Of a stretch of DNA of 40,636 nucleotides, positions 3,556-38,707 are shown in pieces. The DNA is taken from assembly GCA_016790175.1 (NCBI GenBank), contig JAEUPI010000247.1, forward strand, positions 1 to 40,636, read 5' to 3'. The number at the start of each line of letters is the position of its first letter. The first letter of the stretch is position 1. Made by a program: the position numbers and the translations under genes. This stretch comes from Burkholderiaceae bacterium. Its GTDB lineage: Bacteria; Pseudomonadota; Gammaproteobacteria; Burkholderiales; Burkholderiaceae_C. A model generated the notes under the pieces. The model did no database searches. It was not told where the DNA came from and was given only the letters and a program-made list of their open reading frames with translations.

Positions 3556-4002
3556 TCAGTAGCCCTGGCCGCCGCCGCGCGGACCGCGCCCGGTGCCGTA
3601 GGGGCTGCGACCACCGCCACCACCGCCACCACCACCATATCCGCCACCACCGCCGCCGCCACCGCCACCATATCCACCGCGGCCGCCGCCACCGCCGCCG
3701 CCACCGTACGGACCCCGTCCGCCACCGCCGCCGCCGAAGCCGCCAGGGCGATCCTCACGAGGGCGCGCCTCGTTGACCACGACTGCGCGGCCTTCGATTT
3801 GTTGGCCGTTCATGCCGTTGATGGCGGCCTGCGCCTCGGTCGACGACGACATCTCGACGAAGCCAAAACCTTTGGAACGCCCCGTCTCGCGATCCATCAT
3901 GACCTTCGCCGACGTGACGGTGCCGAACGCCGCGAACGCAGCCTGCAACGACTCATCGCGCACGGAGTACGCGAGGTTGCCGACGTAAAGCTTGTTTCCC
4001 AT
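3556..4002 (-). CDS. RRM-domain RNA-binding protein with glycine-rich tail
   Basis: This is a single RNA-recognition-motif protein of 148 aa. RNP2 is LYVGNL at residues 5-10 and RNP1 is KGFGFVEM at 44-51, spaced as in small bacterial and cyanobacterial Rbp proteins. From about residue 92 the chain becomes a Gly-rich tail with interspersed Arg, Tyr and Pro (GGGGGGRGPYGGGG-type runs), which produces a low-complexity CCACCGCC tract in the DNA. The start has a strong site, GAAGGAGC, about 8 nt upstream, and the gene has its own terminator. Members of the family bind single-stranded RNA and are often cold-induced; that role here is inference. It is a single-gene unit convergent with the SDR gene. 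Confidence 0.93.
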   Translation of the reverse strand: MGNKLYVGNLAYSVRDESLQAAFAAFGTVTSAKVMMDRETGRSKGFGFVEMSSSTEAQAAINGMNGQQIEGRAVVVNEARPREDRPGGFGGGGGGRGPYGGGGGGGGRGGYGGGGGGGGGGYGGGGGGGGGRSPYGTGRGPRGGGQGY

Positions 4003-13569: not shown

Positions 13570-15381
13570 ATGCTCCGACCTCTGCTGCTCGCGCTGGCGT
13601 TGGGCCTGGTGCCGACCGGTCCGTCCCGCGCCGACGCGTCCGCGGCCAATGCGCCTGCCAAGGTGCTGCGCTATGCATTCCCGGCCGCTGAGTCGGGATT
13701 CGATCCGGCCCAGGTGACCGATCTGTACTCCAACACGGTGATCGCCAACATCCTGGAGGCGCCGCTGGAATACGAGTACCTCGCGCAACCGGTGCGCGTG
13801 CGCAGCAACACCGCCGTCGCGCTGCCCGACGTGTCGGCCGACTTCACGCGCTTCGTCTTCCACATCCGCTCGGGCATCCACTTCGCAGACGACCCGGCGT
13901 TCGGCGGCCGACGCCGCGAGCTGACGGCGGCCGACTATGTGTACACGCTGAAGCGCCACTACGATCCGCGCTGGAAGAGCGGCAAGCTCTACCTGTTGGA
14001 GACCGAGAAGATTCTCGGCCTCAGCGAGCTGCGGGCCGAGACGATTGCGCAGAAGAAGCCCTTCGACTACGACCGCGACGTGCCGGGCCTGCGTGCGCTG
14101 GACCGCTATCGTTTCGAAGTGCGGCTGGCGCAGCCCAGCCCGCGATTTCACCTGCTGTTCACCGATGCGTCGCTCACCGGCGCGATGGCGCGCGAGGTGG
14201 TCGAGCACTACGGCGATCGCGTCGCTGAACACCCGGTGGGCACCGGTCCGTTCAGGCTGCTGCAATGGCGCCGAAGCTCACGCATCGTGCTCGAGCGCAA
14301 CCCGGGCTATCGCGAGCAGCGATACAGCGAGCGCCCCGCGCCGGACGACCCGCGGCGCACGCGCATCGCGCGCGCGCTCAACGGCCGCGTGCTGCCGATG
14401 GTCGACCGCGTGGAGATCTCGATCATCGAGGAGCCTCAACCGCGCTGGCTGTCGTTCCTCAACGAAGAGCAGGACATCGTCGAGCGTGTGCCCGACGAGT
14501 TCACCGAACAGGCGCTGCCCAACGCCAGGCTGGCGCCCAACCTCGCCCGCCGCGGCATCGAGATGGTGCGCTACCAGCGCAACGATGTGTCGGTGTCCTA
14601 TTTCGCGATGGAGCATCCGGTGGTCGGTGGCTACACGCCGGAGAAGGTGGCGCTGCGTCGGGCGATCTCGCTGGCGGTGGATATCGAGCGCGAGATCCGC
14701 GTGCCGCGACGCGGGCAGGCTATTCCGGCGCAGTCGCCGATCGCGCCGCAGGTGTGGGGTTACGACCCGGCGTTCAAGTCCGAGATGAGCGAATTCGACC
14801 GCGCCCGCTCGCGTGCGCTGCTGGACATGTACGGCTATCTCGACCGCGACGGCGACGGCTGGCGCGAGCAACCCGACGGCTCGCCGCTGGTGCTCGAATA
14901 CGCGACCTCGCCCGACAAGGTCTTTCGCGACCTCTACGAGCAATGGGACGTGAACATGAAGGCTGTCGGCCTGCGCATGATTCCGCTGGTTCGGCAGTGG
15001 CCCGAGCACCTGAAGGCCTCGCGCGCGGGCAAGCTGATGATGTGGGGCGTCGGTTTTTCCGGCGGGCCTGATGCCGATTCCTTTCTCGTGCTCGGCTATG
15101 GCCCCAACAAGGGTCAGGCCAATCACGCCCGCTTCGACCTGCCGGCCTACAACGCGCTGTACGAACGCCAGCGTGTGCTGCCCGATGGGCCCGAGCGCGC
15201 GAAGCTGATCGAGGAGATCAAGCGGCTGATGGTCGCCTACATGCCCTACAAGCTGCACGTGCACCGCATCTGGACCGATCTGTCGCATCCCTGGGTGCTG
15301 GGCTATCACCGCAATCTGTTCGTGCGCGACTTCTGGAAGTATGTCGACGTGCAGCCACACCCGCGCGCGGCCCCCCGGTGA
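13570..15381 (+). CDS. ABC transporter substrate-binding protein, family 5 (paralogue 1)
   Basis: This 603-aa periplasmic solute-binding protein is of the oligopeptide/nickel type. A signal peptide covers about residues 1-22 (MLRPLLLALALGLVPTGPSR, then ADAS). Mature sequence follows the family pattern: KVLRYAFPAAESGFDPAQV at the N-lobe, 'VSADFTRFVFHIRSGIHFAD', the VGTGPFRLLQWRR hinge region, and AYMPYKLHVHRIWTDLSHPW near the end. It carries DRDGDGW (14842-14862), an EF-hand-like loop. It is the first of three adjacent paralogues and is transcribed away from the permease genes. Ligand unknown; peptide uptake is the family expectation. Confidence 0.92.
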   Translation: MLRPLLLALALGLVPTGPSRADASAANAPAKVLRYAFPAAESGFDPAQVTDLYSNTVIANILEAPLEYEYLAQPVRVRSNTAVALPDVSADFTRFVFHIRSGIHFADDPAFGGRRRELTAADYVYTLKRHYDPRWKSGKLYLLETEKILGLSELRAETIAQKKPFDYDRDVPGLRALDRYRFEVRLAQPSPRFHLLFTDASLTGAMAREVVEHYGDRVAEHPVGTGPFRLLQWRRSSRIVLERNPGYREQRYSERPAPDDPRRTRIARALNGRVLPMVDRVEISIIEEPQPRWLSFLNEEQDIVERVPDEFTEQALPNARLAPNLARRGIEMVRYQRNDVSVSYFAMEHPVVGGYTPEKVALRRAISLAVDIEREIRVPRRGQAIPAQSPIAPQVWGYDPAFKSEMSEFDRARSRALLDMYGYLDRDGDGWREQPDGSPLVLEYATSPDKVFRDLYEQWDVNMKAVGLRMIPLVRQWPEHLKASRAGKLMMWGVGFSGGPDADSFLVLGYGPNKGQANHARFDLPAYNALYERQRVLPDGPERAKLIEEIKRLMVAYMPYKLHVHRIWTDLSHPWVLGYHRNLFVRDFWKYVDVQPHPRAAPR

Positions 15382-15397
15382 GAGCCACTGCCACTGC

Positions 15398-17248
15398 ATG
15401 AATCGCCAGGCGCCCACACGTCGACGGCTGTTGCAGGCCGCGGCTGCCACCGTGTTGGCGGCCCGCGGCCAGGCTGCTGCACCGCAGGCCGCCGATGCCG
15501 CGGGCCGCAAGGTGCTGCGACTGCTGTTCAACAGCACCGAGACCAGCTTCGACCCGGCGCGCATTTCCGACATCTACTCGCGCGCGGTCACTGCGCACAT
15601 CTTCGAAGGCCTGTACGCCTACGACCACCTGGCGCGGCCGCACCGGCTCGTGCCGCAGGCCGCCGAAGGCATGCCCGAGGTGTCGGCCGACTTCCGCAGC
15701 TGGACGATCCGCATCCGACGCGGCATCCGCTTTCCCGACGACCCGGCCTTCAAAGGCCGCGCGCGCGAGCTGCAGGCACACGACTTCGTCTACGCGATCC
15801 AGCGTGTGGTCGACCCAGCGAACATCAGCCAGATCGAGGCCGACATCGCCGAGTTGCACATCGTGGGCCTGAAAGAGGCGCGCGACGCGGCGCTGAAAGG
15901 GCGGCAAGCGTTCGACTACGACCGGCCGATCGAGGGCCTGCGCGCGCTGGACAGCCACACGCTGCGCATCGTGCTGCGCGAGCCGCGGCCGCGGCTGCTG
16001 TACGCGCTGGCCCGTGCCGACCAGCTCGGTGGCCAGGCGCGCGAGGTGGTCGAGTTCTATGGCAAGGACATCGGCGAACACCCGGTGGGCACCGGCCCCT
16101 TTCGACTCAAGAGCTGGCGGCGCAATTCGCGCATCGTGCTCGAGCGCAACCCCTTCTATCGCGACGTGCGCTACGACGCGCAACCAGCGCCCGACGACGC
16201 CGAGGGCCAGGCACTGCTGGCGCAGTTCAAGGGCCGGCGGCTGCCGATGGTCGACGAGGTCGACATCTCGATCATCGAGGAATTCCAGCCGGAATGGCTG
16301 GCCTTCCTGGGCCAGGAGGTCGATGCACTGGCCGGCGACACGGGCCAGCTGCCCAGCCTGTTCGCGCCGGTCGCCGTGCCCGGCGGCCGGCTCGCGCCGC
16401 ACCTGGCCAGACGCGGGGTGCGCGCCTACCGGCAGCTCACGCCCGACGTCGCATTCACCTACTTCAACATGGACGACCCTGTCGTCGGCGGCTACGACCC
16501 GGCGCAGGTGGCGCTGCGCCGCGCCATCAGTCTGGCCTACGACACCCGAGAGGAGCTGCGGCAGATCCGCAAGGGCGAGGGCATCCTTGCGCAGTCCCCG
16601 CTGCTGCCGCACACCACCGGTTACGAGGTCGGGTTCAAGAGCGAGGTGAGCGACTACGACCCCGGGCGTGCCAACGCGCTGCTCGATCTGTACGGCTTCG
16701 TCGACCGCGACGGCGACGGCTGGCGCGAACGCCCAGACGGCTCGCCGCTGCGGCTGGAGGTCTCCACCGAGCCCGAGCAGATCTACCGCGCCTACAACGA
16801 GCTGATGCAGAAGGGCCTGCAGCGCATCGGCATCCGCGCGAACTTCCGGATCCAGCAGTGGCCCGAGAACCTCAAGGCCGCCGAAGCCGGCAAGCTGATG
16901 ATCTGGTCCCTCGGCAGCGCGGCGGGTTCGCCCGACGGACAGAGCTTTCTCGGCTGGCTCTACGGCCCGCAGGCCGGCAACGGCAACCTGGCGCGATTCA
17001 AGCTGCCGGAATATGACCGCCTGTACGAGCGCGCGCAGGTGCTGCCCGACGGGCCCGAGCGCGATGCCCTGTTCCTGCGAGCCAAGCGCATTGCGGTGGC
17101 CTACATGCCGTACAAGGTGCGCGTGCACCGCATCTTCACCGACCTCGTGCATCCCTGGGTGCTCGGTTTCCGGCGGCCGCTGTTCTGGCAGGATTGGTGG
17201 CACAGAGTGGACATCGACCTCGCCGTCCGTGCGCGCCACATGAATTGA
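15398..17248 (+). CDS. ABC transporter substrate-binding protein, family 5 (paralogue 2)
   Basis: This is the second tandem binding protein, 616 aa. The N-terminus MNRQAPTRRRLLQAAAATVL resembles a twin-arginine signal (TRRRLLQ followed by an alanine-rich stretch to about residue 28), unlike the plain Sec-type leaders of its neighbours. The body follows paralogue 1 closely: KVLRLLFNSTETSFDPARI, VGTGPFRLKSWRRNSRIVLE, DPVVGGYDPAQVALRRAISL, and the DRDGDGW loop at 16703-16723. ATG at 15398 lies 16 nt after the previous stop; the frame is open back into that gene but the leader sequence fixes the start. Tat export is inference; if true it would be folded before export. Confidence 0.92.
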   Translation: MNRQAPTRRRLLQAAAATVLAARGQAAAPQAADAAGRKVLRLLFNSTETSFDPARISDIYSRAVTAHIFEGLYAYDHLARPHRLVPQAAEGMPEVSADFRSWTIRIRRGIRFPDDPAFKGRARELQAHDFVYAIQRVVDPANISQIEADIAELHIVGLKEARDAALKGRQAFDYDRPIEGLRALDSHTLRIVLREPRPRLLYALARADQLGGQAREVVEFYGKDIGEHPVGTGPFRLKSWRRNSRIVLERNPFYRDVRYDAQPAPDDAEGQALLAQFKGRRLPMVDEVDISIIEEFQPEWLAFLGQEVDALAGDTGQLPSLFAPVAVPGGRLAPHLARRGVRAYRQLTPDVAFTYFNMDDPVVGGYDPAQVALRRAISLAYDTREELRQIRKGEGILAQSPLLPHTTGYEVGFKSEVSDYDPGRANALLDLYGFVDRDGDGWRERPDGSPLRLEVSTEPEQIYRAYNELMQKGLQRIGIRANFRIQQWPENLKAAEAGKLMIWSLGSAAGSPDGQSFLGWLYGPQAGNGNLARFKLPEYDRLYERAQVLPDGPERDALFLRAKRIAVAYMPYKVRVHRIFTDLVHPWVLGFRRPLFWQDWWHRVDIDLAVRARHMN

Positions 17249-17256
17249 ATCCACGC

Positions 17257-19062
17257 ATGACCATGAACCGACTCGCCTCGCTGTTGTTGGCCTTCGTCGC
17301 GGCCACGGCCCTCGCGCAGGCGCCCGAGCGCAAGGTGCTGCGCCTGGCGTTCACGCGCGCCGAGACCAGCTTCGATCCGGCGCGCATCGTCGACCTCTAC
17401 TCGCGCAACGTCACGGCGCACATCTTCGAGTCGCCGCTCACCTACGACCATCTGGCGCGGCCGTTCAAGTACCGGCTGCTGACCGCCGCGGCGATGCCGG
17501 AGCATTCAGACGACTACCGCGTCTGGACCGTCAAGATCCGGCCAGGCATCTACTTTGCGGACGACCCGGCATTCAAGGGCAAGAAGCGCGAGTTGGTCGC
17601 CGCCGACTACGTGTATGCGTGGAAGCGCATCGTCGACCCCAGGAACAAGAGCCCGATCGCGGCCAGTCTCCTCGAGGAAGGCTTCGTCGGGCTCGCGGCG
17701 CTGCGCGAGGAGGCCGTCAAGGGCAACAAGCCGTTCGACTACGACAAGCCGATCGCGGGCCTTTCGGCGCCGGACCGCTACACATTCCGCGTGCAGCTCG
17801 ATGAGGCGCGCCCGCACTTCGTCAGCACCTTTGCCGGGTCGAGTCTGCTCGGCGCCGTGTCGCGCGAGGTCGTTGAGTTCTATGGCGACCAGATCGATGC
17901 GCACCCCGTAGGCACCGGCCCGTTCAAGCTGAAGAGCTGGCGCCGCAGCTCCGAGATCGTGCTCGAGCGCAACCCGACGTACCGCGAGCGTTTCTACGAG
18001 GCCGAACCGGCGTCGGGCGATGCAGCGGGCCAGGCTATCGCCACCCGCTTCATGGGACAGCGGCTGCCGATGGTCGACGAAGTGCGCATCGCGATCATCG
18101 AGCAGAGCCAGCCGATGTGGCTCAGCTTCCTGAATGCCGAGGTGGATGCGCTGGCCACCAACGCCGGGCGTGTGCCGCCTGACTTTCTTGCGCTGGCGAT
18201 GCCGGGCGGCAAGCTGGCGCCGTTTCTGGCCAAGCGCGGCATCCAGGGCATCCGGAACCTGAACTCGGATTCCGGTCTGGCGTACTTCAACATGGAAGAT
18301 CCGGTGATTGGCGGCTACACGCCCGAAAAGATCGCACTGCGCCGTGCGTTCTCGCTCGCCTACGACACCGATGTCGAGATCCGTCAGATCCGCCGCGGCG
18401 GCATTCGCGCGCAGTCGCCGGTGGTGCCGCACACCGTGGGTTACGACCCTGCGTTCAAGAGCGAGATGAGCGACTACGACCCCCCACGGGCCCGCGCGCT
18501 GCTGGACCTGTATGGCTACATCGATCGCGACGGCGACGGCTGGCGCGACCAGCCCGACGGCCGACCGCTGGTGATCGAGATGGCGTCACAGCCCGACGAC
18601 CTGACCCGCAAGTTCGACGAGCTGTGGAAGAAGAACCTCAACGCGATCGGCGTCCGCATCGAGTTCAAGCCCGCGCAGTGGCCGGAGAACCTCAAGGCGG
18701 CGCGCGCCGGCAAGCTGCAGATGTGGATGCTCGGCTCCTCTGCGGCCAGTCCGGACGGCCAAGGCGCGCTGGCGCGGCTGTTCGGCCCGCAATCGGCCAA
18801 CCAGAACCTCGCGCGCTTTCGCAACGACGAGTTCGATCGCGTCTACGAGCGCATGCGTGTGATCCCGGACGGGCCGGAGCGCGAACAGCTGTTCCTTCGC
18901 GCCAAGCAGCTCGCGGCCGCCTACATGCCCTACAAGCACACGGCGCACCGCATGGAAGCCGATATGCTCCATCCCTGGGTCGGCGGCTATCGCCGACCAC
19001 TGTTCTGGCTGGAATGGTGGCACATGGTCGACATCGACCATGGCAAGCGCTCGAAGAACTGA
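17257..19062 (+). CDS. ABC transporter substrate-binding protein, family 5 (paralogue 3)
   Basis: This is the third tandem binding protein, 601 aa. A Sec-type leader is visible (MTMNRLASLLLAFVAATALA with an AQA cleavage context), and ATG at 17263 is an equally possible start. Conserved blocks shared with the two upstream paralogues include KVLRLAFTRAETSFDPARIV, VGTGPFKLKSWRRSSEIVLE, DPVIGGYTPEKIALRRAFSL, the DRDGDGW loop at 18523-18543, and AYMPYKHTAHRMEADMLHPW. It begins 8 nt after paralogue 2 and ends 2 nt before acetoacetyl-CoA synthetase, so all four lie on one probable transcript. The local replacements around the ligand pocket suggest a different ligand from the others. Confidence 0.92.
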   Translation: MTMNRLASLLLAFVAATALAQAPERKVLRLAFTRAETSFDPARIVDLYSRNVTAHIFESPLTYDHLARPFKYRLLTAAAMPEHSDDYRVWTVKIRPGIYFADDPAFKGKKRELVAADYVYAWKRIVDPRNKSPIAASLLEEGFVGLAALREEAVKGNKPFDYDKPIAGLSAPDRYTFRVQLDEARPHFVSTFAGSSLLGAVSREVVEFYGDQIDAHPVGTGPFKLKSWRRSSEIVLERNPTYRERFYEAEPASGDAAGQAIATRFMGQRLPMVDEVRIAIIEQSQPMWLSFLNAEVDALATNAGRVPPDFLALAMPGGKLAPFLAKRGIQGIRNLNSDSGLAYFNMEDPVIGGYTPEKIALRRAFSLAYDTDVEIRQIRRGGIRAQSPVVPHTVGYDPAFKSEMSDYDPPRARALLDLYGYIDRDGDGWRDQPDGRPLVIEMASQPDDLTRKFDELWKKNLNAIGVRIEFKPAQWPENLKAARAGKLQMWMLGSSAASPDGQGALARLFGPQSANQNLARFRNDEFDRVYERMRVIPDGPEREQLFLRAKQLAAAYMPYKHTAHRMEADMLHPWVGGYRRPLFWLEWWHMVDIDHGKRSKN

Positions 19063-32829: not shown

Positions 32830-33888
<1,059 letters not shown>

Positions 33889-33942: not shown

Positions 33943-34869
33943 ATGCCACTGGGCACGCTCGATCGCACGCCGCCGCCCTTCTTCCGCCAGGGGCCGTCGG
34001 CGCTGACCAAGCTGGCCGTCTTCTCGGCGCTGGCGGTCTTCCTCATGGCTGCAGACTCCCGGCTCAAGTACATCCAGCCGGTGCGCGGCGCCATCGCCAC
34101 CGCACTGCTGCCGGTGCAGAAGGCGCTGCTGATTCCGGTGGAAATGGTCCAGGGTGGAGGCGAATACCTGCAAGGCCTGGCGCGCGCGATCCGAGGTGAG
34201 CGCGACGCGCGCGCCGCACTCGTCGCCCAGGCCGAGCGCGCGGCTCGTGTGGAGCAGTTGGCGCAGGAGAACGCCCGCTTGCGTGGGCTGCTCGAGCTGC
34301 GGCCATCGTTGCAGGTGAAGGGCCGGGCGGCCGAGGTGCTCTACGAGGCCACCGATCCGTACTCGCGCAAGCTGTTCATCGACAGCGGCGCCACGCAAGG
34401 GGTGGCGCTGGGCTCACCGGTCATCAACGATGCCGGCGTGCTGGGCCAGGTGACCCGTGTCTACCCGCTGTCATCGGAGGTGACGCTGCTCACCGACAAG
34501 GATGCGGCAATCCCCGTGCTCAACGCCCGCACCCAGCAACGCAGCGCGGCCTTCGGTGGTCTCACCGGCGAGTTCGAAGGCATGGAGCTGCGCTTCCTGG
34601 CCGGCAACGCCGACGTGCAGCCGGGCGACCTGCTGACCACCAGCGGCGTGGACGGCGTCTATCCACCGGGGTTGCCGGTGGCCAAGGTCGTGAAGGTGGA
34701 CCGCAAGGTCGACTCGGGCTTCGCCCGTGTCGCGCTGCAGCCACTGGCTCAGGCCGACGGCGTGCGGCATGTGTTGGTGCTCGAGCCGATTGGTTCGCAA
34801 ATGCCGGCGCGCCCGGCGCCGGAACCCGAGACGCCCAGAGCCGGGCGGTCGAAGGCCACCAGGCGATGA
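33943..34869 (+). CDS. mreC: Rod shape-determining protein MreC
   Basis: MreC is the periplasmic scaffold that contacts PBP2 and activates the elongasome. The 308-aa product has a membrane helix at about 25-40 (KLAVFSALAVFLMAA), then a coiled coil at about 85-125 (ERAARVEQLAQENARLRGLL), and the beta-sandwich domain with DSGATQGVALGSPVINDAGV and GQVTRVYPLSSEVTLLTDKD. The tail is proline- and basic-rich (PAPEPETPRAGRSKATRR). Its TGA overlaps the ATG of a 30-codon frame, the first link in the repeat-based chain leading to mreD. Confidence 0.96.
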   Translation: MPLGTLDRTPPPFFRQGPSALTKLAVFSALAVFLMAADSRLKYIQPVRGAIATALLPVQKALLIPVEMVQGGGEYLQGLARAIRGERDARAALVAQAERAARVEQLAQENARLRGLLELRPSLQVKGRAAEVLYEATDPYSRKLFIDSGATQGVALGSPVINDAGVLGQVTRVYPLSSEVTLLTDKDAAIPVLNARTQQRSAAFGGLTGEFEGMELRFLAGNADVQPGDLLTTSGVDGVYPPGLPVAKVVKVDRKVDSGFARVALQPLAQADGVRHVLVLEPIGSQMPARPAPEPETPRAGRSKATRR

Positions 34870-34958
34870 GTTGGGTATGGTGCGAGCCGCATGATCATGC
34901 CGCCGCAATGGGAGCACGCGTCGTGATCATGCCACCGCGTCTGGAGTGCGCGCCATGA
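34866..34958 (+). other. Coupled 30-codon leader reading frame between mreC and mreD
   Basis: ATG at 34866 overlaps the mreC stop (ATGA). The frame reads MSWVWCEPHDHAAAMG and ends VVIMPPRLECAP at TGA 34956-34958, crossing repeats 1 and 2. That TGA overlaps the ATG at 34955, which opens an 11-residue frame (MIMPPRLEYAP) ending at TGA 34988-34990, which in turn overlaps the mreD ATG. The peptides look functionless; their likely role is to carry ribosomes forward by termination-reinitiation. Confidence 0.45.
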
Positions 34959-34986
34959 TCATGCCGCCGCGTCTGGAGTACGCGCC
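34891..34986 (+). repeat. Three tandem 32-bp repeats carrying ribosome-binding sites and starts
   Basis: Units at 34891-34922, 34923-34954 and 34955-34986 each start [A/G]TGATCATGCC and end with GGAG plus 8 nt. Units 2 and 3 differ at only a few positions; unit 1 is more diverged. A fourth, partial copy is the first 13-14 bases of mreD itself. The unit length of 32 moves the reading frame by one base per copy. The repeats appear to be duplications of the mreD initiation region. Confidence 0.92.
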
Positions 34987-35508
34987 ATGATCATGCCGCG
35001 CGGGGCCGACCAGCTGCTGCTGCCGGTCAATCCGCTGTTCATCGTGGCGTCGCTGCTGTTCGCGCTCGGATTCAACCTGATTCCGTTCGGCCGACAGGCC
35101 GTGCTGCCGGACATGCTGGCGCTGGTGCTGGTGTTCTGGAACGTGCACCAGCCGCTGCGCGTCGGTATCGGCCTGGCTTTTCTGCTCGGGCTGCTGATGG
35201 ACGTTCACCAGGGAGCCCTGTTCGGGCAGCACGCGCTGGCCTACACCATGTTGAGTTTCCTCGCGGTGACGATGCACCGGCGCCTGTTGTGGTTCTCGGT
35301 CCTGGAGCAGGCCTTGCAGGTGTTGCCGCTGTTCGTCGCCGCACATGCCGTCTCGCTCGCGGTTCGCCTGGTGTCTGGGGGGCACTTTCCGGGTTGGCAA
35401 CTTCTGATGGCGCCCGTGTTCGAGGCACTTTTGTGGCCTTTGGCCGTCTGGGTGTTGCTGGCACCGCAACGACGGGCGCCGGACCCGGACGAGAATCGAC
35501 CGCTCTAG
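34987..35508 (+). CDS. mreD: Rod shape-determining protein MreD
   Basis: MreD is the small integral membrane subunit of the MreBCD complex. The 173-aa product starts MIMPRGADQLLLPVNPLFIV and has about five hydrophobic helices, with LPDMLALVLVFWNVHQPLRV and FLLGLLMDVHQGALFGQHAL matching the family. ATG 34987 has GGAG at 34975-34978 with 8 nt spacing, both part of the tandem repeat. Its first 13-14 bases are the fourth copy of the repeat. mrdA follows 15 nt after the stop. Confidence 0.94.
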   Translation: MIMPRGADQLLLPVNPLFIVASLLFALGFNLIPFGRQAVLPDMLALVLVFWNVHQPLRVGIGLAFLLGLLMDVHQGALFGQHALAYTMLSFLAVTMHRRLLWFSVLEQALQVLPLFVAAHAVSLAVRLVSGGHFPGWQLLMAPVFEALLWPLAVWVLLAPQRRAPDPDENRPL

Positions 35509-35523
35509 CACCAGCCCGCCCGG

Positions 35524-37533
35524 ATGACCGAACTTCGCAACGTCGAAGCCGACCTCGATCGATTTCGAGGACGACTCCTGGCGGCCGCGATTTTCGTGGT
35601 CGCCGGCTTCGGCCTGCTGGCGACGCGGCTGGTGTGGCTTCAGGTCTGGCAGCATGAAACGCTGTCGACGCAGGCCGAGGCCAACCGCATCGCGGTGGTG
35701 CCGGTCGTGCCGAACCGCGGGCTGATCCTCGATCGCAACGGCATCGTGCTGGCGACGAACTACTCGGCATACACGCTGGAGATCACGCCGTCGCGCCTGC
35801 CGGCAGATGCCGATGCCGTGATCGACCAGCTGTCGGCCGTGGTCGACATCCAGCCGCGCGACCGGCGCCGCTACAAGCGCCTGCTGGAGGAAAGCAAGAG
35901 CTTCGAGTCGCTGCCGATCCGCACCAAGCTCACCGACGAAGAGGTGGCGCGCTTCATGGCGCAGCGGTTCCGCTTTCCCGGTGTCGACGTGCGGGCGCGC
36001 CTGTTTCGCAACTACCCGCTCGGCGAGACCGCCTCGCACCTGATCGGCTACATCGGCCGCATCAACCAGGCCGAGAAGAAGGCAATGGACGACTGGGAGG
36101 AGGATCGGCAGGCGAACTACAAGGGCACCGACTACATCGGCAAGCTCGGCCTCGAGCAGAGCTACGAGGATCAACTGCACGGCCTGACCGGATTCGAGGA
36201 GGTCGAGACGAGCGCCGGCGGACGCGCCGTGCGGCGGCTCGCAAGCCATGGCGCGACCCCGGGCAACACGCTGCGGCTGTCGGTGGACATCAAGCTGCAG
36301 GCGTTGGTGGAGGAGATGTTCGGCCAGCGTCGTGGCGCGCTGGTGGCCATCGACCCGCGCAACGGCGAGGTGCTGGCGCTGGTGAGCAAACCGACCTTCG
36401 ACCCGAATCTGTTCGTCGACGGCATCGACGCGGACAACTGGCGCGAGCTCAACGAGTCGATCGACAAGCCGCTGCTGAACCGCGCGTTGCGCGGCACCTA
36501 TCCGCCGGGGTCGACCTTCAAGCCGTTCATGGCGATGGCAGCGCTGAACACCGGCAAACGAAGCCCGAGCACGATCATTCACGACGGCGGCTCGTATCAG
36601 TTCGGCAACCATCTCTTCCGCAGCCACGGCGACCATGGACTCGGAGCGGTGGACATGATGAGGTCGATCGTCAAGTCGAGCAACGTCTACTACTACTCGC
36701 TGGCCAACGAGCTCGGCGTCGACCTGATGCACGAGCAACTCTCGCCGTTCGGCTTCGGCCGCAGGACCGGCATCGACATCGACGGCGAGCTCACCGGCGT
36801 GTTGCCGTCCACCGAGTGGAAGCGGCGCTACTACCGGCGGCCCGAACAGCAGAAGTGGTACGCCGGCGAGACGATCTCGCTGGGCATCGGCCAGGGCTAC
36901 AACAATTTCACCGCGCTGCAGATGGCCAGCGCCACCGCCACCCTGGTTTCCGGCGGACTGCGCTTCAAGCCGCGACTCGTGCGCGATGTCGAGGACGTGG
37001 TCAGCCGCGAACGCAAGCGCGTCGCCAGCGATGCGCTGGAGCCGCTGCCGTTCAAGCCCGAGCATGTGGAGCTGATCAGCAAGGCCATGCACGGGGTGAC
37101 GCAGGAGGGCACGTCGGTGCGTTCGTTCATGGGCGCGCCATACAAGTCCGGCGGCAAGACCGGCACGGCGCAGGCCGTGTCGATCAAGCAGAACGAGAAG
37201 TACAACGCCTCCAAGCTCGAGGAGCATCAGCGTGACCATTCGTGGTACATCGCGTTCGCGCCGGTGGGCGCACCGACGGTGGCGCTGGCGGTGATCGTCG
37301 AGAACTCCGGCTTCGGCTCCGAGGCCGCCGCGCCGATCGCGCGCCGCGTGTTCGACTACCTGCTGCTCGGCCTGGTGCCGAGCCCCGAGGACATCGCGCT
37401 CACCCAGCAGGGCAAGTCAGGCGCGCCGGTGGGCAAACAGCGCCCGGCCGACGAGTGGCCGCTGCCCAGCCTGGCCGGCGCGACGCCGCAGACCGTGCAA
37501 CCGCCGGTGACCGTGGCCCGGGGGCCGCGTTGA
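35524..37533 (+). CDS. mrdA: Penicillin-binding protein 2 (elongasome transpeptidase)
   Basis: PBP2 crosslinks peptidoglycan during cell elongation, working with RodA. The 669-aa class B PBP has a membrane anchor at about 19-40, then a dimerisation/pedestal region (VVPNRGLILDRNGIVLATNY), and a transpeptidase domain with the active-site S330 in PPGSTFKPF, the SxN motif S385-S386-N387 (KSSNVYYY) and KTGTAQ at 545-550. The tail to 669 is proline-rich and variable. Beta-lactams such as mecillinam acylate this Ser in other species. It lies directly upstream of rodA, 19 nt apart. Confidence 0.96.
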   Translation: MTELRNVEADLDRFRGRLLAAAIFVVAGFGLLATRLVWLQVWQHETLSTQAEANRIAVVPVVPNRGLILDRNGIVLATNYSAYTLEITPSRLPADADAVIDQLSAVVDIQPRDRRRYKRLLEESKSFESLPIRTKLTDEEVARFMAQRFRFPGVDVRARLFRNYPLGETASHLIGYIGRINQAEKKAMDDWEEDRQANYKGTDYIGKLGLEQSYEDQLHGLTGFEEVETSAGGRAVRRLASHGATPGNTLRLSVDIKLQALVEEMFGQRRGALVAIDPRNGEVLALVSKPTFDPNLFVDGIDADNWRELNESIDKPLLNRALRGTYPPGSTFKPFMAMAALNTGKRSPSTIIHDGGSYQFGNHLFRSHGDHGLGAVDMMRSIVKSSNVYYYSLANELGVDLMHEQLSPFGFGRRTGIDIDGELTGVLPSTEWKRRYYRRPEQQKWYAGETISLGIGQGYNNFTALQMASATATLVSGGLRFKPRLVRDVEDVVSRERKRVASDALEPLPFKPEHVELISKAMHGVTQEGTSVRSFMGAPYKSGGKTGTAQAVSIKQNEKYNASKLEEHQRDHSWYIAFAPVGAPTVALAVIVENSGFGSEAAAPIARRVFDYLLLGLVPSPEDIALTQQGKSGAPVGKQRPADEWPLPSLAGATPQTVQPPVTVARGPR

Positions 37534-37552
37534 GCGAGACACAGGTGTCGGC

Positions 37553-38707
37553 ATGAGCGCCGTCTTCGAGCAGCCCTCGCTCTGGCAGCGCGTGCGTCCG
37601 ATGGTCGGCGGCTTCGACGGCATGCTGATCGGCGTGGCCGCGCTGCTGGCGGCCGCGGGGCTGGTCACGATGTATTCCGCCGGCTTCGACCATGGCACGC
37701 GGTTCGTCGACCACGGCCGAAACATGCTGATCGCCTTGCTGATCATGCTGGTGGTGGCGCAGATCCCGCCGCAGAAGCTGATGGGCCTGGCGGTGCCGCT
37801 GTACACGGTAGGCGTTGCGCTGCTGGTGGCCACGGCGCTGTTCGGCATCACGAAGAAGGGCGCCACGCGCTGGCTCAACGTGGGCGTGGTGATTCAGCCG
37901 AGCGAGGTGCTGAAGATCGCGATGCCGATGATGCTCGCCTGGTGGTTCCAGAAGCGCGAGGGCCGGCTGCAGGCCACCGACTTCATCATCGCCGGCCTGC
38001 TCTTACTGGTGCCCGTGGGCCTCGTGGTCAAGCAGCCTGACCTGGGGACCGCGATCCTGATTCTCTCGGCCGGGCTCTACGTGATTTTCTTCGCCGGCTT
38101 GTCGTGGAAGTTGATCGTCCCGGTGCTGGTCTTGGGCCTGGCTGCCATCGCGGCGATCGTGATCAGTGCCGATGCCATCTGCCAGCCGGACATGAAGTGG
38201 CCGCTGCTGCGCGAGTACCAGAAGCACCGCGTGTGCACGCTGCTCGACCCGACCACCGATCCGCTGGGCAAGGGGTTCCACATCATCCAGGGCATGATCG
38301 CCATCGGCTCCGGCGGCCTGGCGGGCAAAGGCTTCATGAACGGGACCCAGACTCACCTGGAGTTCATTCCCGAGCGGACGACCGACTTCATCTTTGCCGC
38401 CTTTGCCGAAGAGTTCGGGCTGGTCGGTGCCGCCGGACTGCTGATCGGATTCACGCTGCTGATCCTGCGCGGCCTGATGATCGCCGCCGAGGCGCCGACG
38501 GTGTTCACCCGCTTGCTGGCCGGCGCGGTGACGCTGAGCTTCTTCACTTACGCCTTCGTCAACATGGGCATGGTCAGCGGCGTGCTGCCGGTGGTGGGCA
38601 TTCCGCTGCCGTTCATCAGCTACGGCGGCACGGCGATGGTGAGCCTCGGGCTCGGGCTTGGCCTGCTGATGTCGATCGCCCGCAGTCGAACGCTGATGCA
38701 GAGTTGA
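37553..38707 (+). CDS. rodA: Peptidoglycan glycosyltransferase RodA
   Basis: RodA is the SEDS-family polymerase that makes glycan strands with PBP2. The 384-aa product has about 10 membrane helices. Conserved blocks are RWLNVGVVIQPSEVLKIAMP, KQPDLGTAILILSAGLYVIF, the periplasmic loop with PERTTDFIFAAFAEEFGLVG (the catalytic Asp region) and VVGIPLPFISYGGTAMVSLG. It is the last gene of the operon and converges on the sensor kinase gene 18 bp away. No terminator is evident. Confidence 0.96.
   Translation: MSAVFEQPSLWQRVRPMVGGFDGMLIGVAALLAAAGLVTMYSAGFDHGTRFVDHGRNMLIALLIMLVVAQIPPQKLMGLAVPLYTVGVALLVATALFGITKKGATRWLNVGVVIQPSEVLKIAMPMMLAWWFQKREGRLQATDFIIAGLLLLVPVGLVVKQPDLGTAILILSAGLYVIFFAGLSWKLIVPVLVLGLAAIAAIVISADAICQPDMKWPLLREYQKHRVCTLLDPTTDPLGKGFHIIQGMIAIGSGGLAGKGFMNGTQTHLEFIPERTTDFIFAAFAEEFGLVGAAGLLIGFTLLILRGLMIAAEAPTVFTRLLAGAVTLSFFTYAFVNMGMVSGVLPVVGIPLPFISYGGTAMVSLGLGLGLLMSIARSRTLMQS

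Follow-up and report, generated by a model that had tools for sequence, protein, structure and literature searches.

A probable ribosome relay through frame-keeping mini-frames between mreC and mreD in Burkholderiaceae

How might translation of mreD remain tied to that of mreC when more than a hundred nucleotides lie between the two genes? The question is raised by a 40,636-nt contig of a Burkholderiaceae bacterium (JAEUPI010000247.1; the whole contig is called the window here, and the mre genes and the mini-frames between mreC and mreD are on its forward strand), in which 117 nt separate the mreC stop codon (34867-34869) from the mreD start (34987) and three tandem 32-bp units fill most of this distance. 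Direct overlap of mreC and mreD is the common state, found at 116 of the 173 junctions that we compared (those of relatives plus that of the window). Pfam searches confirmed the operon order mreB-mreC-mreD-mrdA-rodA, with mreB at 32845-33888 (MreB_Mbl, E 1.6e-148), mreC at 33943-34869 (MreC, E 5.7e-38) and mreD, beginning MIMPRGADQ, at 34987-35508 (MreD, E 4.5e-14); mreD was matched in 59 of 60 relatives.

The mreC stop TGA lies within an ATGA, and the start at 34866, which shares these four nucleotides with it, opens a lead mini-frame of 30 codons (34866-34958). Its stop overlaps the ATG at 34955, from which an 11-codon frame (34955-34990) runs into the mreD ATG, with ATGA at every junction of the chain; all these coordinates are exactly those given by a first-pass annotation of the sequence. 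What that annotation missed is that every unit forms an 11-codon frame of its own. Following the frames in silico, unit 1 (34891-34922; frame 34891-34926) ends in the start at 34923, unit 2 (34923-34954; GTG start, frame 34923-34958) in the start at 34955, and unit 3 (34955-34986; ATG start, frame 34955-34990) in the start of mreD, which itself follows the three whole units. A second chain thus passes unit by unit to mreD with an NTGA overlap at each step; the frame of unit 2 is the same reading frame as the lead mini-frame. GGAG motifs, read from the sequence, stand 8 nt ahead of GTG 34923 (34911-34914), ATG 34955 (34943-34946) and the mreD ATG (34975-34978), and the claim that every unit carries GGAG-N8 is right for these three starts and wrong for the one at 34891, which has no GGAG ahead of it.

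The tandem arrangement itself was borne out by Tandem Repeats Finder, which reported period 32 with 3.4 copies at 34890-34999 and a score of 157, the highest of 32 rows for the window. Lag-32 identity over 34870-34999 was 0.76, compared to a highest value of 0.50 when 2000 mononucleotide shuffles were scanned at lags 10-59, which places the array far from chance. The repeat is not dispersed, a 171-nt junction query matching its own assembly (3.93 Mb, 82% complete) at one place, and the 32-bp array was absent from the other five members of the genus. The fold of the junction (34850-35020) was ordinary (z 0.60; 142 of 200 shuffled sequences folded as well or better), and RNA structure was rejected as the function of the junction; the special fold expected of a leader peptide or attenuator was likewise not seen. 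Elsewhere in the window, we observed an ACC/CCG-rich low-complexity repeat run at 3602-3745 and, at 14175-19020, three stretches that resemble one another, spaced at intervals of about 1.85 kb and 63-76% similar to their reference copies, which are probably tandem paralogous genes.

It had been proposed that the copy number of the repeat decides which frame reaches mreD and how many steps lie ahead of it. In silico, the frames lead to mreD in every array of 2 to 6 units, because 32 is 33 - 1 and each unit ends in the next start; the number of steps changes, as had been proposed, and the frame does not. With one unit the lead frame becomes an in-frame N-terminal extension of mreD, and with none it overruns. 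The array therefore tolerates copy changes rather than switching. A switch in which slippage of the repeat tunes MreD levels would suit tandem units that keep the coding phase and each supply a relay step, and losing enough of them does alter the outcome, but the chain stays intact over 2 to 6 units and the units have diverged from one another, so that slippage is not recent; we consider such a switch improbable.

We gathered 215 mreC-mreD loci from relatives. Loci L038 (a run of N) and L083 (short) were dropped and exact duplicates collapsed, leaving 174, and L089, in which no mreC stop was found and into which its twin L152 had already been collapsed, was then removed, so that 173 junctions were kept. 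Among the family genomes mreD was found in 389 of 399; the family sampling (24 new loci and 80 regions) drew on the genomes of highest similarity and under-samples distant members. Named records among the close matches belong to Burkholderiales (Ideonella, Rubrivivax and others), and for other families of the order 20 of the 23 genomes with a match were taken.

A gap of at least 5 nt separates mreC from mreD at 56 of the 173 junctions, and one further junction (L084) has TAA and a 2-nt gap. A start codon lies inside the mreC stop (NTGA, N not C) at 46 of these 56, as ATGA in 35, GTGA in 9 and TTGA in 2, and without exception a bridge of mini-frames leads from it to an mreD start: one mini-frame at 42 junctions, whose gaps are all 1 mod 3, and two at the remaining 4, whose gaps are all 0 mod 3 (the window, 117 nt; L051 and L068, 54 nt each; L135, 48 nt). 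The ATGA relay seen in the window is in this sense conserved, and it is so across 19 different gap lengths from 10 to 130 nt. Within the window's genus alone, the six members have gaps of 117, 61, 25, 37, 22 and 91 nt, all different and all bridged. The relay rows L207 and L209 are near-identical (97.5% over 280 nt of mreD). The first-pass annotation had held that its reading would fail if relatives kept the same repeat number and lost the overlaps; among the relatives we found the opposite, lengths that vary and overlaps that stay.

The frequency of bridging was compared with shuffled gaps whose length was varied by one, under a strict rule that counts only called mreD starts and so leaves out L206, whose bridge ends at a GTG that lies in frame with the called start and 6 nt ahead of it. 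Under this rule 45 of 46 junctions are bridged and 13.6 of 46 are expected, an excess with log10 p of -25 if rows are taken as independent and of -11 when each distinct gap length is drawn once. The other ten gapped junctions, where mreC ends in CTGA, provide a natural contrast: none of them is bridged, and their phases 0/1/2 are 2/4/4; at 3 of the 10 mreD also has no A after its start codon. The difference from the NTGA junctions (Fisher p 6e-6; 0.009 on distinct lengths) argues for a restart at the mini start and against slipping or chance.

This contrast bears directly on a reading in which ribosomes slip by -1 at the mreC stop and extend MreC through the mini-frame. At NTGA the mini-frame is indeed the -1 frame of mreC, and a minor frameshifted fusion at an AUGA overlap is described for another bacterium (PMC11260477). 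A slip, however, requires no start codon, and the phase is kept with NTG and not with CTG; in addition, the peptides of the mini-frames range from 5 to 42 codons and are mutually unlike. We find this reading scarcely credible. Nearly as implausible, in our judgement, is a role of the mini-frames as genes for functional small peptides: several of them end alike, for example in ..E.AP, but these endings follow from the copied GGAG and GCGCC ahead of the start, and both length and sequence differ between species of one genus.

The gaps themselves have changed often. A quick tree of MreC and MreD together requires overlap and gap to have replaced one another at least 30 times, and gap length to have changed at least 31 times within the 46 relay rows. 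The MreC tail in 38 relay rows (medians 34 and 36.5) did not differ in length from that in 96 overlap rows (36; p 0.13), in a test that left out the 28 of 173 rows without the motif, and its basicity was 0.31 in relay rows and 0.33 in overlap rows. Since the MreC tails are not shortened, the gaps look like insertions. The intact tails also disfavoured a functionless origin, in which a frameshift in the mreC tail would leave the old frame open down to the old stop in the mreD start. Such a remnant would end in the mreD start automatically, but the MreC tails of relay rows are neither shorter nor less basic, gap length differs among close relatives with the phase kept, frame agreement is found only where a start codon is present, and in several rows the content of the gap is a copied start. 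We regard it as very improbable.

As for the source of the inserted DNA, the mreD start, NTGATCATG, is reproduced with at most one mismatch at 15 of the 50 mini-frame starts, and the idea of a repeat born by duplicating the mreD initiation region holds for part of the cases. The history of the junction is taken to be one of repeated insertion or duplication of which in-phase outcomes would have survived. In the window, the best explanation of the array is local amplification of one mini-frame, and the extra DNA would consist of 32-bp copies of the mreD initiation region (GGAG, a spacer and NTGATCATGCC) amplified in tandem, each copy carrying a complete relay step because 32 = 33 - 1. Two other gaps resemble dispersed sequences by eye: that of L006, which is bridged, would contain a relative of a MIRU-like element of the genus (element A, described below), and the 100-nt gap of L102 a copy of a REP-like family (element B), across which a 35-codon frame forms the bridge.

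Taken together, the anatomy of the junction, the conservation of frame in relatives, its dependence on a start codon and the intact MreC tails make it likely that the mini-frames act as a ribosome relay that preserves termination-reinitiation coupling of mreD to mreC. The 4-nt stop/start overlap of most relatives suggests that most translation of mreD is probably the work of ribosomes coming straight from mreC. Such close coupling is probably old, as direct overlap is the commonest state and as, in other families of the order, an in-frame candidate start lies at -4 in 10 of 20 loci and at -1 in 3 more. After DNA had been inserted, lineages would have been kept only if a mini-frame ran from the mreC stop into the mreD start; by this means one long distance would be converted into overlaps, and ribosomes would terminate and restart once or twice across the gap and still reach mreD. 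We infer from the sequence pattern that the mini-frames would be translated and that reinitiation would be by the very ribosome that terminated, or by its small subunit, the balance of MreC to MreD presumably being what selection acts on. A distance of about 20 nt nearly abolished coupling in six gene pairs as reported by Huber et al. (2023; PMC10666635), a result that fits this picture, and against it stand studies, cited in a review (PMC12548453), that see coupling at 25-50 nt and beyond with no bridge.

Several observations count against the relay. Of the 46 relay rows, 40 have a Shine-Dalgarno-like match of at least 4 nt ahead of mreD, as do 102 of the 116 overlap rows and 7 of the 11 unbridged ones, and with such a match of its own mreD could be initiated independently; among the 46 first mini starts only 26 have one. 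Termination-reinitiation may be inefficient on mini-frames as short as 5-6 codons, ten lineages persist with an unbridged gap, and the folding z demonstrates no structure at the junction that would need opening. In a rival reading the mini-frame acts through occupancy, its translating ribosomes keeping the RNA open or Rho off while fresh ribosomes start mreD: the same comparative pattern would be expected, most mreD starts have the SD-like match, and unfolding is still treated as a live model in the review cited above (PMC12548453). Unfolding, however, needs no exact overlap of stop and start, yet in all 46 cases the bridge stops precisely on an mreD start; there is hardly any need for protection over gaps of 10-37 nt, and the fold of the window's junction is not unusual. 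We therefore judge occupancy unlikely, and retain the relay as the preferred reading.

Neighbouring junctions of the same loci served as controls. At mreB-mreC, the gaps whose upstream stop contains a start codon are spread over the three phases (18/33/31); the figure of 1 bridged in 82 was discarded as a control for bridging, being unfair in that the mreC start is followed by A in only 1 of the 82 NTGA-type gaps. At mreD-mrdA, mini-frames bridge 29 of the 45 junctions whose mreD stop contains a start codon, and 16 are unbridged; 3 of the 29 have more than one mini-frame or lie in phase 0. The tendency to bridge so extends to mreD-mrdA, less strictly than at mreC-mreD (Fisher p 2e-6 against 46 of 46). 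In the window the mreD stop is TAG and no bridge leads to mrdA; between mrdA and rodA, an 8-codon TTG frame (37531-37555) leads from the mrdA stop into the rodA ATG across a gap of 19. Over 800 kb of one genus member, with genes and starts taken from a simple ad hoc caller, 32 of 64 NTGA gaps were bridged as were 15 of 48 CTGA gaps in which CTG was treated as a pseudo-start (p 0.055); this excess at other junctions is only suggestive and, being so weakly above control, counts against the relay.

In the same-strand gaps of an 800-kb region (G003:C4:1-800000; L216-L255) we also observed two repeat families, the first in 18 gaps, of which 15 have a length of 1 mod 3 and 17 open with NTGA (N not C), and the second, REP-like, in 17 gaps. 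Five of 60 genomes, all of the window's genus, carry the MIRU-like dispersed element A of about 78 bp (for example G000:C2:3181-3261; L276-L313), found at 20 sites with a strict pattern; an 81-nt query matched at least 132 times, in all six genomes of the genus. NTGA stands at both ends in 27 of the 36 copies inspected, 25 lead to a frame of at least 80 codons, and some copies are in tandem. It may be, although we lean slightly against so broad a statement, that a frame rule holds for the whole family: under very strong selection for coupling of mreD to mreC, DNA would enter mreC-mreD only as a relay, either as a copied downstream start in units of 3n-1 or as elements that bring a coupled frame, the rule would extend to other junctions such as mreD-mrdA, and the MIRU-like element would exploit it. 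On this account serial mini-frame relays may be a general feature of how operons evolve that has been overlooked.

It is disputed whether ribosomes can cross an intergenic gap after termination. Exact overlaps kept in many lineages at very different gap lengths are natural evidence that crossing without a frame is inadequate for mreC-mreD, and one gene pair supplies one-step, two-step and bridge-less junctions as ready-made test constructs. Very short unannotated frames can, more generally, matter through their position alone.

The arrangement at each relay junction is that of termination-reinitiation coupling at a -4 nt NTGA overlap, which is also the form of the direct overlap at the 116 junctions, and the stop/start overlap of such a coupled pair was found at all junctions of the window's chain and at all 46 NTGA gaps; known cases, however, join two genes directly, whereas here one or two mini-frames intervene. 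The first-pass annotation went too far in holding that a repeat-built relay had not been described, because the MIRUs of mycobacteria are, in the account of PMC12548453, repeat units with an ORF coupled to the next gene at -4 spacing, and together with coupled uORFs they are the closest known kin of the relay. Unlike a MIRU, the window's unit is not dispersed (one match in its genome), is 32 bp long and copies the local mreD start; element A of the genus is much closer to MIRU. Two short ORFs likewise promote translation of the next gene: uPPE2 overlaps ppe2 at an AUGA and is described as lying in a 5' leader, with neither an overlap to an upstream gene nor tandem units in that description (PMC11260477), and the intergenic mgtQ begins 51 nt past the mgtC stop, its description likewise giving no overlap to the upstream gene and no tandem units (PMC8092293). 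In the bicistronic design of synthetic biology, as generally outlined, the stop of a short leader cistron also meets the start of a gene and delivers ribosomes to it; that design is engineered with a single leader, whereas the relay here is natural, serial and set between two genes. A literature search, mostly of titles and abstracts, returned besides MIRU (PMC12548453) no natural series of repeat-made relay frames, no conserved in-phase relay of varying length between two fixed genes and no relay born by copying a downstream start, and at title and abstract level nothing to the point on mreC-mreD coupling. NTGA coupling, coupled uORFs (PMC11260477, PMC8092293) and MIRUs are already known, and what is less familiar here, set beside them, is the origin from a copied downstream start and the strict keeping of frame together with a rapid turnover of length.
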